Virus record (IMG/VR): IMGVR_UViG_3300006059_000011
Span: 1-26,331 of that record
Strand: one strand, 5' to 3'
DNA: 26,331 nt
DNA from: a virus
Part shown: positions 12,844-26,331 of the stretch, one piece after another
Numbering within the stretch: the stretch's first letter is position 1
Layout of the letters: each line of letters starts with the position of its first letter
Program-made: the position numbers and the translations under genes
The notes under the pieces: model-generated
Told to the model about the DNA's origin: nothing
The model's input: the letters and a program-made list of their open reading frames with translations, nothing else
The model's database searches: none

Positions 12844-12875
12844 ACTCCTATTCGCTACTCGCGATTTCTCTATTT
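12844..12875. repeat. palindromic element remnant E2
   Basis: A short degenerate stretch (CTATTCGCTACTCGCG, then TTTCTCTATTT) matching one arm of the modular palindromes and lacking the second arm. On the minus strand it ends in GCGAATAGGAG, placing AGGAG as the ribosome binding site of the gene starting at 12837. Confidence 0.6.
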
Positions 12876-13275: not shown

Positions 13276-13292
13276 GGGAAGGCTCCGAGAAG

Positions 13293-13364
13293 GCGAGTAG
13301 CGAACTAGCGAGTAGACGGGACGCTTCCCTACTCGCTATTCGCCACTTCGCTATTTCGCTTTCT
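13293..13364. repeat. modular palindromic element, copy E3
   Basis: The left arm has GCGAGTA, GCGAACTA and GCGAGTA; the apex is ACGGGACGCTTCCC; the right arm has TACTCGC, TATTCGC, CACTTCGC and TATTTCGC. It ends 5 bases before the stop of the gene at 13370-14002, so it occupies nearly the whole spacer. Confidence 0.85.
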
Positions 13365-13369
13365 GAAAA

Positions 13370-14002
13370 TCAGCACGCGCCGGCGGTTGAGCCCATCGGC
13401 ACATAGATGCAGCCGCCATCGTTCGGGCCGAAGTATTCGAGCACGACGATAACGGTGCCCGCCGATGGCGCCGCGCCCGTATAGGTCACGGTGAGCCACA
13501 CATCGAAACCGCCGTTGGCGCCGGTCTGGGCGATGCCGTTGCCGGTCGCCGCGATGCCGGCATTGGCGGCGACGACGGTCAGCGCGGTCGAGCCGGTGAT
13601 AGCCGCGATGGTCTGTGCCGCCACAAGGTTGACGGCCGCCGAAGTGGTGCCGACCGCCAAGGTGCAGGTGGTGGCGGCATTGCAGGCCGTCACCACCTGC
13701 TGATAGGCGCGCACCACGAACGCATTGTAAGGCAGCGCCGCCACCCGGATCGAACAGGTCAGGCCGACGAAGATGCAGGTGTTCTGCGCCTGGTCGGCCT
13801 GGAAGTTCGTCGCCGTAATGTTGATGACATGGCGCTCGTAATGGACCTGCTGGGTCGGAAATGCCCGCGGCGCGAATTGGCCCGGGAACACCAGAGCGAG
13901 CGCCGCCGGACCGATAAGAAACGAGCCGATGCCAAGTCCGACAAGGCCGGCGATCGCGGCGTCGCGAACGCGCGTGGTAATGGAGCGCAGGAAGTTGCGC
14001 AT
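13370..14002 (-). CDS. putative membrane-anchored or exported capsid-region protein
   Basis: A 210-residue protein starting MRNFLRSITTRVRDAAIAG, with a basic N-terminus and a hydrophobic helix at residues 16-39 (IAGLVGLGIGSFLIGPAALALV). The remainder is a beta-type domain rich in Ala, Val and Thr, with six Cys residues (about 76, 82, 107, 113 and near the C-terminus) that could form disulphides outside the cytoplasm. The ATG has AAGGATC upstream. It lies directly after the major capsid gene, separated by palindromic element E4. An anchored or secreted protein here is unusual; a hydrophobic capsid accessory is the alternative. Confidence 0.83.
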   Translation of the reverse strand: MRNFLRSITTRVRDAAIAGLVGLGIGSFLIGPAALALVFPGQFAPRAFPTQQVHYERHVINITATNFQADQAQNTCIFVGLTCSIRVAALPYNAFVVRAYQQVVTACNAATTCTLAVGTTSAAVNLVAAQTIAAITGSTALTVVAANAGIAATGNGIAQTGANGGFDVWLTVTYTGAAPSAGTVIVVLEYFGPNDGGCIYVPMGSTAGAC

Positions 14003-14035: not shown

Positions 14036-14127
14036 GCGAAAAGAGCGAGTAGCGAAGTGGCGAATAGCGAGTAGGGAAGCTCCTCTACTCGCTACCTCGC
14101 TACTTCCCTACTCGCCCCCTTACGCTC
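14036..14127. repeat. modular palindromic element, copy E4
   Basis: It shares both ends with E1: GCGAAAAGAGCGAGTAG on the left and GCCCCCTTACGCTC on the right. Its arms hold GCGAGTA, GCGAAGTG, GCGAATA and GCGAGTA opposite TACTCGC, TACCTCGC, TACTTCCC and TACTCGC, with the apex GGGAAGCTCCTC. The right end touches the stop of the major capsid gene. Confidence 0.9.
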
Positions 14128-15276
14128 TTACTGATCATTCGCCGCAGCGAAGTATCCGGTGAAAACGCCCCATTCCTTGTAATTGTTGGTGGGGTTCGCC
14201 TTGGCGATCTTCTTCATGCCGTACGCCATCATGACGCCGACACCGCGGAAAAACTGATAATCGTCTTCCTTGAGGAACGTCGGGGTGGGCATGCGGCCCC
14301 ATGCCCAGGCCATGGCGGATTGTCCGCACAGGAAGATCGGCGCGATCTGGATGCCGGCCGAGCCCGCCGTGGTGTAGGTGGTGGGCAGCCGCACGTCGAG
14401 CTCCGGCACTTCCCGGATGATCATGCCGTTGTAGAGCAGGTCGCCGTCCTGGAACAACGGGTTCTTGTCGAGCCCATCGCCTTCGCGGGGGCGCGATTGG
14501 GTGTTTGCCGTGATCACGGTGGTGTCGTTCTGAAGATCGCGGAACGGATTCGATCCGGCGAACACCACGAAGTATTCGCGGCCGTTCTTGAGCTTGTAGG
14601 GCCGCAGCCGCGGGTTGGCCTTCTTGGCGAGCCGCTTCATCTTGTTGAGCGATGCGGCCGACGCGGTCATTGCCGAGGTAATGTTGGCGGCCGAAGTCGC
14701 CCAGTTGCCGGCGGAGAGATTGCCCTGGGCGCCGCCGAACAATACGCGGTCGGCATTGTCGGTCAGCCAGGTATTGCGCTGGGCGGCGGTCGCGCCGTCG
14801 AACAGCGCGCCGTTGACGCGCTGGCCGTTGACCGACCCGAGACCGACGGGAGCGGTCGAGGCAAGCGGGACGGCATAGAAGGCGTCGATGATTTCGTCGC
14901 GCTGAAGTTCCTTGCCCCAATCATCGAGCAACGGACGCGCCTGGCCGAACAGGTCGACGCTGCTCTTCTGCTCTTCCGACCGCGGCAGTCGGACGGCATT
15001 GCGCGCCCAGTCGATCCACATGCGGTCGCCGTAGTTGTCGATCGATTCCTCGTTTCCGACCAAGGTGCCGGTCGAGATCGGCTGGTTCTTGAGACGCGCG
15101 ATCAGCGGAATGTTGATCTGTTCGCCGCCCTTCTTGAGGTCGTTGATGACCCGAATGATGGCGGTCAGTTCGGTTCCGATATAGGGCGCAAAGAGGTTCT
15201 GGCGAATGTATTCGCGCGTCACTTCCTTGCGGAACACGATCAGCTTGTTGTTGGAGGAGACAGTGGTGACGGCCAT
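14128..15276 (-). CDS. major capsid protein (N4 gp56 / DUF4043 type)
   Basis: A 382-residue protein beginning MAVTTVSSNNKLIVFRKEVT. The N-terminal pattern NNKLIVFRKEVTREYIRQN followed by GTELTAIIRV and IPLIARLKNQPI is that of the DUF4043 / N4 gp56 capsid family, a HK97-fold coat protein. Further family-type segments are DRMWIDWARNAVRLPRSEEQK (about 84-104) and REYFVVFAGSNPFRDLQ. It lies directly after the scaffold, as expected. The ATG has AAAGGACC upstream, and a hairpin with a T run ends 17 bases before the ATG. Its stop TAA is immediately followed by palindromic element E4. Confidence 0.92.
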   Translation of the reverse strand: MAVTTVSSNNKLIVFRKEVTREYIRQNLFAPYIGTELTAIIRVINDLKKGGEQINIPLIARLKNQPISTGTLVGNEESIDNYGDRMWIDWARNAVRLPRSEEQKSSVDLFGQARPLLDDWGKELQRDEIIDAFYAVPLASTAPVGLGSVNGQRVNGALFDGATAAQRNTWLTDNADRVLFGGAQGNLSAGNWATSAANITSAMTASAASLNKMKRLAKKANPRLRPYKLKNGREYFVVFAGSNPFRDLQNDTTVITANTQSRPREGDGLDKNPLFQDGDLLYNGMIIREVPELDVRLPTTYTTAGSAGIQIAPIFLCGQSAMAWAWGRMPTPTFLKEDDYQFFRGVGVMMAYGMKKIAKANPTNNYKEWGVFTGYFAAANDQ

Positions 15277-15331: not shown

Positions 15332-15421
15332 CTAAGGGAGCGAGTAGCGAGTAGCGAAATAGCGAGTAGAAGAAAGCCTTCCCTATTCGCTACTCGCTAC
15401 TTCCCTACTCGCTCTTTTCGC
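15332..15421. repeat. modular palindromic element, copy E5 (inverted relative to E1/E4)
   Basis: The left end CTAAGGGAGCGAGTAG is the complement of the right end of E1/E4, and the right end CTACTCGCTCTTTTCGC is the complement of their left end, so this copy is inverted. The arms are GCGAGTA, GCGAGTA, GCGAAATA and GCGAGTA opposite TATTCGC, TACTCGC, TACTTCCC and TACTCGC. Confidence 0.88.
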
Positions 15422-15427
15422 CGACAA

Positions 15428-16557: not shown

Positions 16558-16672
16558 GAGGAGCGAGTAGCGAAGTAGCGAAATAGCGAACTAGCGAGTA
16601 GCGAGTAGCGAATAGGGAAGCTCCTCTACTCGCTACCTCGCTATTTCCCTACTCGCTCTTTTCGCTACTCGT
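16558..16672. repeat. modular palindromic element, copy E6 (expanded)
   Basis: The longest copy. The left arm has seven modules (GCGAGTA, GCGAAGTA, GCGAAATA, GCGAACTA, two GCGAGTA and GCGAATA), the apex is GGGAAGCTCCTC, and the right arm has TACTCGC, TACCTCGC, TATTTCCC and TACTCGC, then TCTTTTCGC. The excess left-arm modules suggest expansion by slippage or recombination. It encodes the end of the gene at 16649-16858. Confidence 0.9.
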
Positions 16673-16858
16673 TCCTCCAGCCCTCCGCTTGGGCTTGGCT
16701 TCATTTCGCTGAAGCCGGGCGATCTCTCTGCGCAGGCGGCCGATCTCGGTCCGCTGGGCGGTCACCAATGCGCCTTTGGCCACGAGCTGCTTTGCAAGCT
16801 CGATGTTGCGATTGCGCAATTCCTTGATGGCATGGGCATCGATCAGGCTATGGCGCAT
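16649..16858 (-). CDS. small coiled-coil protein with element-encoded C-terminus
   Basis: A 69-residue protein starting MRHSLIDAHAIKELRNRNIE. Residues about 8-52 form a helix with hydrophobic heptads (IKELRNRNIELAKQL and then IGRLRREIARLQRN), so a coiled coil is likely. The following KPKRRAGG is basic. The last seven residues (TSSEKSE) and the stop TAG are read from the end of palindromic element E6, so the original C-terminus may have been replaced. It sits between the exported protein after the portal and the scaffold, 3 bases from the upstream stop. It could assist head assembly by position. The family is unknown. Confidence 0.72.
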   Translation of the reverse strand: MRHSLIDAHAIKELRNRNIELAKQLVAKGALVTAQRTEIGRLRREIARLQRNEAKPKRRAGGTSSEKSE

Positions 16859-23317: not shown

Positions 23318-24058
23318 TCAATTCTCCTGGTAGCGATCGCAATCGCGATCGGCCCGCACGAGGCCGCAGACGATTTCGCAGGGGGCGATGTCGCCATTGC
23401 CGAGCGCCTTGCGGATGGCGGTGTCGCGGCCGAAGTGGACGCAGTTGGCGCATTTGTCCGGCCCCATGCCGTAATGCACCGCGATCTTGGATTCCTTGAA
23501 GGCATCCACGACACCTCTGGCGCGGAACATGCGCAGCAATTCCTTGGCGCGCTTGCCGTCGGGGCCGTCATCCGTGAAGGCCGTGTCGTGATAGGGGCCG
23601 CACCACAGATCCTTGGGCGGATTGACCGGATCGCGCTTCACGCAGCGGTCGATCGCCGCATCGGTCGTCTCATTCACGCTATCGGGATTGCGTCCCAGAG
23701 TTTCGTAACGCTCATTTTCCTTGGCCGACGCATAGGCGTGCGCGGCCCCGTAGCTGTCCACCGGATTGTCGCCGGCGTCCACCGACCACTCGGTGTGCTC
23801 GTGCTCGATCCAGGCGCCGATCAGTTCCTTCGGCGCGATGCCGCGGACGCGGACATCGCCGGCCATTACCTCGGCATGGAGCCGGCGATCGATGTAGACG
23901 GTCTTGCCGTCCGCGCTGATGCCGCCCGCGTAAGGGACGTCCCGGGTGGTGTCGATCCTGACCGCCCGCGCCAGCAGATCGGGCGTATCGCCTTCGCCGA
24001 GCATGCGCGAGAGTTCCGCCGGCGTCTTGGGCTCGGCATGGCGATGGCCGCTGGACAT
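23318..24058 (-). CDS. protein with metallopeptidase-like HExxE motif and HiPIP-like cysteine cluster
   Basis: A 246-residue protein, MSSGHRHAEPKTPAELSRML. Residues 41-60 (VPYAGGISADGKTVYIDRRL) precede WIEHEHTEW at 83-91, which contains H86-E87-H88-T89-E90, and AAHAYASAKENE from 105; the HE and AH spacing resembles zinc-dependent peptidase folds, though not a standard HExxH. The C-terminus has Cys203-x2-Cys206-x20-Cys227-x12-Cys240 plus Cys231, with VHFG and CDRYQ, close to the cysteine spacing of high-potential iron-sulphur proteins. Possible roles are a head-maturation protease or a redox-sensitive factor. Both assignments are inferences. It overlaps nothing and its downstream partner follows after one base. 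Confidence 0.82.
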   Translation of the reverse strand: MSSGHRHAEPKTPAELSRMLGEGDTPDLLARAVRIDTTRDVPYAGGISADGKTVYIDRRLHAEVMAGDVRVRGIAPKELIGAWIEHEHTEWSVDAGDNPVDSYGAAHAYASAKENERYETLGRNPDSVNETTDAAIDRCVKRDPVNPPKDLWCGPYHDTAFTDDGPDGKRAKELLRMFRARGVVDAFKESKIAVHYGMGPDKCANCVHFGRDTAIRKALGNGDIAPCEIVCGLVRADRDCDRYQEN

Positions 24059-24252: not shown

Positions 24253-24513
24253 TTATTTGCGAAATTGATGCTCGATCGCTTTCCAGTCAGGCCAATCGGC
24301 CGGCGTAAGAAATCTCAGCCGCCACTTATTGGAACAATGAAGTTCGCGAACCGTATAATACGTGTGCGACACTTCGACCATCGCCGGAGCGACGCCCGAT
24401 CGCGTCAACACGTTCAGTCGGCCCGGAGGATCGGGCAATTCGATGTCGCGCGCTCCCGGCGTTAAATCCGCAAATTGCCCATCGCGCGGGCCGCCGATAA
24501 TCTTAAGCTTCAT
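24253..24513 (-). CDS. small hypothetical phage protein
   Basis: An 86-residue protein, MKLKIIGGPRDGQFADLTPG, with GGAAAGA upstream and an ATGA overlap with the previous gene. The GGPRDG N-terminus, a beta-type centre (AMVEVSHTYYTVRELHC) and the tail WRLRFLTPADWPDWKAIEHQ look like a small phage protein family of unknown function that I have seen in alphaproteobacterial phages. It has no membrane segment. It is the last gene before the terminator at 24158-24187. Confidence 0.82.
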   Translation of the reverse strand: MKLKIIGGPRDGQFADLTPGARDIELPDPPGRLNVLTRSGVAPAMVEVSHTYYTVRELHCSNKWRLRFLTPADWPDWKAIEHQFRK

Positions 24514-25247
24514 TTGATTTTGTCTTTCCGATGCCGCTCCCGCTCCATCAACGCCCGAAAATGCCCATAAACTCCGGCCGCGTCCGCCGGGTCAACCAGG
24601 CCGAGTCGGGTCACCGTCTCGATGAAGGCTTCGCGCTCGGAGTTTAAGGAGCGAGTGGCGAAGTAGCGAGTAGCGAGTAGGGAAGCGTCCCTTCTACTCG
24701 CTAGTTCGCTACTCCCCATTCGCTTTCTTCCGGGCCGCCGCTTGATCCCCAATGCATCCGCCAGGATTCCCAGCGCGATCTTCACCGCCGGCAGCCATCC
24801 CGGCGGGCAGGCGCGATCCTCGACGCACAGCTCTTCAAGCGGCCCTTTCACTTGGCGCGGGCAGAGCGCGATTTCGGCCTGCAGGGTGCCGAACGCGCGC
24901 GCGACGTCCTGGGCACGCTCCCGTGCTTCCTCGCTCTCGATGGCCGCCGTATCGCGACCACGGCCCAGTTCATAGGACGGCGAAGCGACCGACCGCCTCC
25001 GGCCGATCGAGCGGTCGTAACGGCCATAGATTTCTGCAATGCGGAATCCGGTTGCTACTTCTACGGGCGTCAGGCTACCGGCGTAGCCGAGGCGGCCGAG
25101 CTGGGTGGCGATGAGAGGATTGCAGCCGAGCTTGACGGCGTCCTCGCGGATGCGGTGCCAGCCGGCGAGCGATGGTCCCTCCGGCTCCTGGATAAGCTGG
25201 CCGCCGGGATGGCGCTTGCCGGGCTTTTTCGGACGGCCTTTAGCCAT
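24510..25247 (-). CDS. hypothetical protein interrupted in frame by a palindromic element
   Basis: A 245-residue protein from the ATG at 25247, which has GGAG upstream and overlaps the previous stop by 8 bases; a TTG upstream is rejected. The N-terminus MAKGRPKKPGKRHPGGQL is basic; residues 30-80 are helical (RIREDAVKLGCNPLIATQLG, VEVATGFRIAEIYGRYDRS); Cys129, Cys141 and Cys147 lie in the middle. Residues about 174-202 (MGSSELASRRDASLLATRYF and on) are read from palindromic element E7, in frame, between GIKRRPGRK and EREAFIETVTRLG. The flanking sequence looks like one protein, so the element may be a tolerated insertion. Alternatively the element joined two genes. The function is unknown. Confidence 0.8.
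   Translation of the reverse strand: MAKGRPKKPGKRHPGGQLIQEPEGPSLAGWHRIREDAVKLGCNPLIATQLGRLGYAGSLTPVEVATGFRIAEIYGRYDRSIGRRRSVASPSYELGRGRDTAAIESEEARERAQDVARAFGTLQAEIALCPRQVKGPLEELCVEDRACPPGWLPAVKIALGILADALGIKRRPGRKRMGSSELASRRDASLLATRYFATRSLNSEREAFIETVTRLGLVDPADAAGVYGHFRALMERERHRKDKIK
24645..24729. repeat. modular palindromic element, copy E7, inside a coding sequence
   Basis: The left arm has GCGAGTG, GCGAAGTA, GCGAGTA and GCGAGTA; the apex is GGGAAGCGTCCC; the right arm has TACTCGC, TAGTTCGC, TACTCCCC and ATTCGC. It is about 84 bases, a multiple of three, and has no stop in the frame used by the gene at 24510-25247. Its orientation matches E5. Confidence 0.85.
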
Positions 25248-26034: not shown

Positions 26035-26331
26035 TCAATCATGCCGGATGCCCATTCCGATCATAGCCACGCACCTCTCGACCAGCTTCAGGCAATCCGG
26101 ACGATCGCTGACGCCGCCGGGTCCCCAATGTTTTCGTGCCGCGTCGATCGATAAATTCCGGCACCCGGCGATGATCCTCCACTCGCCCTTGATTTTTGCG
26201 GGCACGAACCAATAGCCGCGCGAATCTTTGCCGGCCGAAATGCCGGGGAGGTTGTAGAGCCCTACCTCGGTCGCGGCCGGCAATTCCGGCAGCACGGTGA
26301 GGCCGCGGAGGTTGTAGAGCCCCACCTCGGT
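26035..26331 (-). CDS. partial gene with 20-residue tandem repeat, open at the right edge
   Basis: The visible C-terminal 98 residues run off the right end of the window, so the start is not seen; a GTG at 26325 lies inside the repeat and is not a convincing start. Two 20-residue units begin TEVGLYNLRGLTV and TEVGLYNLPGISA. They are followed by GYWFVPAKIKGEWRIIAGCR and a C-terminus with Cys, Asp and His (DRPDCLKLVERCVAMIG). The array may continue outside the window. The function is unknown. Confidence 0.72.
   Translation of the reverse strand, partial: TEVGLYNLRGLTVLPELPAATEVGLYNLPGISAGKDSRGYWFVPAKIKGEWRIIAGCRNLSIDAARKHWGPGGVSDRPDCLKLVERCVAMIGMGIRHD
26248..26331. repeat. tandem repeat with 60-base period at the window edge
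   Basis: GAGGTTGTAGAGCC followed by C[TC]ACCTCGGT occurs at 26248 and again at 26308, a 60-base period equal to 20 codons of the partial gene. The second copy ends at the window edge, so the full copy number is unknown. Confidence 0.8.

Follow-up and report, generated by a model that had tools for sequence, protein, structure and literature searches.

The gene at positions 24510-25247 of a phage record (minus strand, 245 amino acids) raises the question of how a long palindromic repeat can lie within a reading frame without closing it, and whether the repeat entered the middle of a protein or reached it from its end. The window, that is the whole stretch of DNA analysed, is the IMG/VR virus record IMGVR_UViG_3300006059_000011, positions 1 to 26,331. 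The repeat, E7, occupies 24645-24729 on the minus strand (about 85 nt, with ends uncertain by a few nucleotides) and reads AGAAAGCGAATGGGGAGTAGCGAACTAGCGAGTAGAAGGGACGCTTCCCTACTCGCTACTCGCTACTTCGCCACTCGCTCCTTA in the direction of the gene. It folds with an energy of -49.6 kcal/mol (z -5.4), none of 200 shuffled sequences being as good, and its codons 174-202 (24728-24642), about 28 in number, encode RKRMGSSELASRRDASLLATRYFATRSLN. The preliminary description was right that a palindromic element lies in frame within the ORF and that the frame stays open through it. This frame is the only open one among the six of E7.

The six long palindromic copies of the window, E7 included, have arms made of heptads GCGA[AG]TA around a short asymmetric core; some arm units have 8 nt instead of seven, such as GCGAAGTA and GCGAACTA. 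The other five match E7 with 83-93% identity (E-values 7e-22 to 2e-13), the long copies group into families D1/D3 and pairs I1/I2, and all six fold far more strongly than their shuffled versions (z -5.4 to -9.3). The name E7 implied seven copies: six long ones are present, together with an 18-nt fragment near 12849-12866 that is possibly a chance match. Four copies lie 3-7 nt past stop codons: 2899-2985, 4 nt past the stop at 2990; 13288-13363, the best match of E7 among them (93% over 60 nt, with the orientation reversed), 6 nt past the stop at 13370; 14036-14120, 7 nt past that of the major capsid gene (stop at 14128); and 15334-15424, 3 nt past the stop of a scaffold-like gene (15428). The copy at 16559-16668 holds the stop codon of the small ORF 16649-16858, to which it supplies the last residues and the stop (TSSEKSE*); a homologue of this ORF was not found in the relatives L022 and L023. 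The copies at 2899-2995 and 14036-14133 have flanks and outer arms in common, while the 14-nt core of one is exactly the reverse complement of the other (AGAGGAGCTTCCCT and AGGGAAGCTCCTCT), as if the hairpin centre had been inverted between them.

The copies at 13288, 14036, 15334 and 16559 are absent from L022 and L023, despite a capsid protein that is 89-91% identical there; for this reason the window copies are probably recent in the phage lineage. The corresponding sites without the element are too diverged for a comparison of target-site duplications, and the longest direct repeat flanking the element has 5 nt; compared with MITEs, the whole element is an inverted repeat. A role of the element as a native terminator is disfavoured, since relatives with a capsid protein of about 90% identity do without it. 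A terminator-like GGCGGGTTTTT between the scaffold and capsid genes is kept in those relatives, and the hairpins of the element are themselves strong. An Rfam search gave only chance hairpin matches, under the cut-off.

The exact core of the element was found in none of the GTDB genomes, phages and plasmids searched, so that the exact subfamily of the window appears confined to this phage population. The heptad design is more widespread: of 297 Hyphomicrobiales genomes, 15 contain three consecutive heptads, the reversed control giving 0, and several of these matches are palindromes of the same design, about 20 chromosomal repeat loci having been covered. One of them (L248:1501-1555) lies on a Hyphomicrobiales chromosome between two genes, which from reading by eye we take to be tuf and rpsJ. 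The heptad pattern is also present in 79 IMG/VR stretches, three of which are from this phage population (about 76 further ones). The analysis identifies a family of palindromes with heptad arms that this phage has in common with chromosomes of Hyphomicrobiales and with phage-like contigs. A Hyphomicrobiales host is the likely source of the element, its own repeats having been copied into the phage; the host assignment is based on the repeat design and on related prophages.

Copies for comparison were picked by the three-heptad pattern and placed relative to genes with a simple home-made codon-based gene caller. Among 42 non-redundant palindromic copies outside the window, none is internal to a gene, none lies over a start codon, 14 have the stop codon of a gene inside, and for 27 a stop codon is no more than 15 nt away. 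The genes that stop inside such copies end in tails like KRIANSE*, KRVANSE* and RIASSE*. Some of the IMG/VR palindromes hold the stops of head genes, namely those of the prohead protease (L293, L272, L316, L269), of the portal protein (L322) and of a head completion protein (L267). Part of the carriers may represent head clusters (portal, S78 protease, capsid, head completion) of prophages or gene-transfer agents in chromosomes and not free phages, and for this reason many phage cases are not claimed.

The composition of the arms accounts for these endings. Repeated in tandem, the heptad GCGAGTA shifts through each of the three frames in turn (CGA GTA GCG AGT AGC GAG TAG, translated as R V A S S E and then a stop). 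Three heptads thus bring a stop in every frame, and they do so from either side of the palindrome. Since the heptad yields ...SE* in every frame, this ending was rejected as a proof of frame-specific insertion. Taken over 46 copies, the open frames number 31 of 276, where shuffled sequences have 78.5 +/- 7, a depletion that is partly due to the three-heptad selection. E7 keeps its frame open because GCGAACTA, one base longer than a heptad, replaces the heptad exactly at the would-be stop, changing AGC GAG TAG into AGC GAA CTA G. The same 8-nt unit is found in the nearest relative of E7, the copy at 13288-13363.

The gene that carries E7 belongs to an uncharacterised phage protein family and lies upstream of the small and large terminase genes. 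Direct searches returned this phage population alone, and in phage and plasmid records the whole gene had no match; homologues were sought among the ORFs of about two hundred loci, gathered through relatives of the terminase and of neighbouring genes. Homologues were identified in phages and prophages (L137/L207, E 1e-21; L034; L145/L180; L219; L220), and a profile added L133, L079, L182, L069, L208 and a few fragments. In L219, L220 and L034 the homologue lies upstream of the same neighbour as in the window (23318-24058). The identity shared by the homologues is about 18-39%. Ten divergent homologues all stop no more than 18 residues past a conserved C-terminal stretch that ends at about window residue 171, where E7 begins, the conserved part of the gene as a whole covering residues 1-171 (24735-25247, minus strand): they terminate, for example, in ...GLDRRRTP*, ...GLDRRRA* or ...QPRKGA*, whereas the window protein reads ...GIKRRPG and then continues into the element. 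Compared with its family, the window protein has about 70 additional residues, and its structural neighbours in BFVD have mostly 148-202 amino acids; a Foldseek search of the PDB gave nothing. An AlphaFold2 model built from 11 sequences predicts a helical core over residues 27-165 and low confidence (pLDDT 44-47) over residues 171-200, the segment of E7. Since ten homologues end where E7 begins, the element is placed at the ancestral 3' end of the gene and not, as had been stated before, in its middle, a position that the 42 copies elsewhere do not occupy either.

Behind E7, the frame continues through a tail of about 42 codons (residues 203-245 and stop, 24510-24641, minus strand), and its stop TGA and the start ATG of the next gene (24253-24513, minus strand) overlap as ATGA; a weak homologue of this next gene was found in a prophage of Afipia. 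For coding in the frame of the ORF, the score of the tail is +8.3 bits, where the 5th percentile of real genes is 2.6 and the 95th percentile of out-of-frame sequence is -7.1, whereas E7 itself scores -20 bits. The GC content of the tail by codon position is 0.71/0.40/0.71, and AlphaFold2 predicts for it a separate helical hairpin (helices 201-214 and 220-244, pLDDT 73-84). No counterpart of the tail was found within the ten homologues, and no homologue of it as a separate gene in Hyphomicrobiales genomes, phages and the collected loci, which is a weak test run without a positive control; nor does the tail, outside the element, have a convincing start codon of its own. The preliminary description had named two separate genes flanking the element in relatives as evidence against its reading. 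Relatives come close to this, as separate ORFs do follow the gene, for example in L137, L034 and L219, but none is demonstrably homologous to the tail. The 66-amino-acid ORF after the gene in L137 was rejected as a tail homologue (shuffle p 0.20).

The explanation that we favour, and consider probable, is that E7 is a REP-like element of gene 3' ends that is read through into the tail, fusing two coding pieces. It would be a palindromic copy with GCGA[AG]TA arms around an inverted core, from a family that sits at gene 3' ends, and its landing site would have been the stop codon of a phage gene or the position just ahead of it. Most copies would terminate translation themselves, leaving short tails such as ...KRIANSE*; in E7, the GCGAACTA unit would reset the phase, so that the ORF frame contains no stop. 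Read-through is assigned to this frame as it is the only open one of the six, and translation would run through 28 hairpin-coding codons and 42 downstream codons to the stop that overlaps the next start. The putative product is a fusion of the old folded protein, a flexible linker encoded by the element and a short helical tail, the latter being probably another small coding sequence or part of it. This explanation builds on what was directly observed, namely the position of the element, its open frame, the ends of the homologues, the coding character of the tail and the behaviour of the other copies. We infer the insertion at the old stop codon from the ends of the homologues, as the empty site was not found and no relative is close enough at E7. 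The joining of two coding pieces is likewise deduced, given that a homologue of the tail was not found and that its similarity to the small ORF of L137 is not significant, and actual translation through E7 is presumed.

Alternatively, the ancestral protein might already have had the C-terminal hairpin, and E7 would have landed between two domains, where it was tolerated as a linker, a true in-frame insertion. The coding-like tail in the same frame, its modelled folding as a hairpin of its own and its ATGA coupling to the next gene are all consistent with this, as is the match between the frame of the gene and the one frame of E7, out of six, that is open; moreover, with a homologue identity of about 18-39%, a lineage-specific C-terminal domain in the window protein is possible. 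However, the tail is missing from every homologue, copies elsewhere are never gene-internal (0 of 42) and the element begins exactly at the conserved C-terminus, and we regard such an insertion as rather unlikely.

A more doubtful proposal is that the gene yields, besides the long fusion, a second and separate protein of 69 amino acids, for which the element would supply the start. An ATG at 24721-24719 (minus strand, codon 177) does lie inside E7, in frame with the coding-like tail and with the ribosome-binding-like stretch GGAAG 7 nt upstream, and the tail is predicted to fold alone; however, no stop separates the two parts, so the fusion would be made as well. It is also conceivable that the frame is open by accident and that the tail does not code, the read-through giving no functional product. 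Over the six window copies 7 of 36 frames are open (1-2 of 6 in most copies), so that read-through in one of six is expected by chance; yet the 42 tail codons are like those of real genes in codon usage and in GC by codon position, and the helical prediction for them is confident; we consider an accident very improbable. An assembly artefact can practically be dismissed: repeats can cause misjoins and the supporting contigs possibly come from one study, but a second IMG/VR assembly (3300027898_000028) contains the ORF, as well as E7 and 100 nt to either side of it, without a single differing letter and with unique flanks on both sides.

Bacterial palindromic repeats that supply stops or lie in frame are already published. 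GTAG REPs, which occur in Bradyrhizobium and Rhodopseudomonas and are linked to RAYT transposases, are palindromes of 20-40 bp by gene 3' ends with one GTAG at one end; the TAG is often the stop of the flanking ORF, and some lie inside ORFs (PMC3733652). Like them, the heptad element is found at gene 3' ends and supplies stops (14 of 42 hold one, 27 of 42 are within 15 nt), but it is about 85 nt long and has several GTAG units inside both arms. A Y1 tyrosine transposase (PF01797) was found neither in the window record nor in a longer sister contig or five other carriers, the control genomes being positive; the mobilising Y1 enzyme could be located in the host. Rickettsia palindromic elements are known in-frame palindromes read as protein parts in many unrelated ORFs (PMC10969869). 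The parallel with them drawn in the preliminary description is apt as to the effect, an in-frame palindrome, but not as to internal insertion in a conserved protein: the Rickettsia elements are about 150 bp long, differ in design by their published description and are often truly internal to bacterial genes, inside conserved protein parts, whereas E7 begins where homologues end.

Br-REP1 and Br-REP2 of Bradyrhizobium, also in Hyphomicrobiales, are repetitive palindromes in 3'-UTRs (PMC5082802); their consensus sequences, CCGGAATCTCGAGATTCCGG and CGAGATTCCGGGTTCGGCTCTT..., have no heptad arms, unlike the E7 family. The heptameric repeats of Xanthomonas and Nostoc are 7-nt units near or overlapping stop codons (PMC4692102), but they are G-rich tandem arrays (GGGAATC), thought to form quadruplexes, where the E7 family is palindromic. 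In Escherichia coli, ribosomes are stalled by REPs that lie 15 nt or less from a stop codon, according to the work cited in PMC5082802 and PMC12306157; by analogy, the same may apply to the other window copies near stops. In the open-access literature searched, we found no description of the heptad sequence as a repeat family, nor of such an element in a phage.

E7 would show, as a concrete case, how viral genes can be lengthened or fused by a small palindromic repeat. It also suggests why gene ends tolerate such repeats: the 7-nt unit, shifting through the three frames, mostly carries a stop along. Tentatively, a host-derived family whose heptad arms bear a stop in nearly every frame on entry may for this reason settle safely on gene ends and have colonised a free phage, in which a stop-removing 8-nt unit would turn the element into a gene-fusing linker. 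The question of a repeat-encoded protein in phages is hereby reduced to a single mass-spectrometry test.

Some further features of the record were observed. The sister contig (L015:3795-10857) adds about 7 kb beyond the left end of the window, and no further long copy of the element. On the plus strand, an ORF of 702 codons (829-2937) runs antisense to several phage genes; it has no Pfam match and is probably spurious. At the right end (26242-26331), a 30-nt repeat is present in two copies 60 nt apart (93%) and encodes the repeated peptide GLYNL; the contig ends inside it, and this repeat may be the reason why the assembly stopped there.
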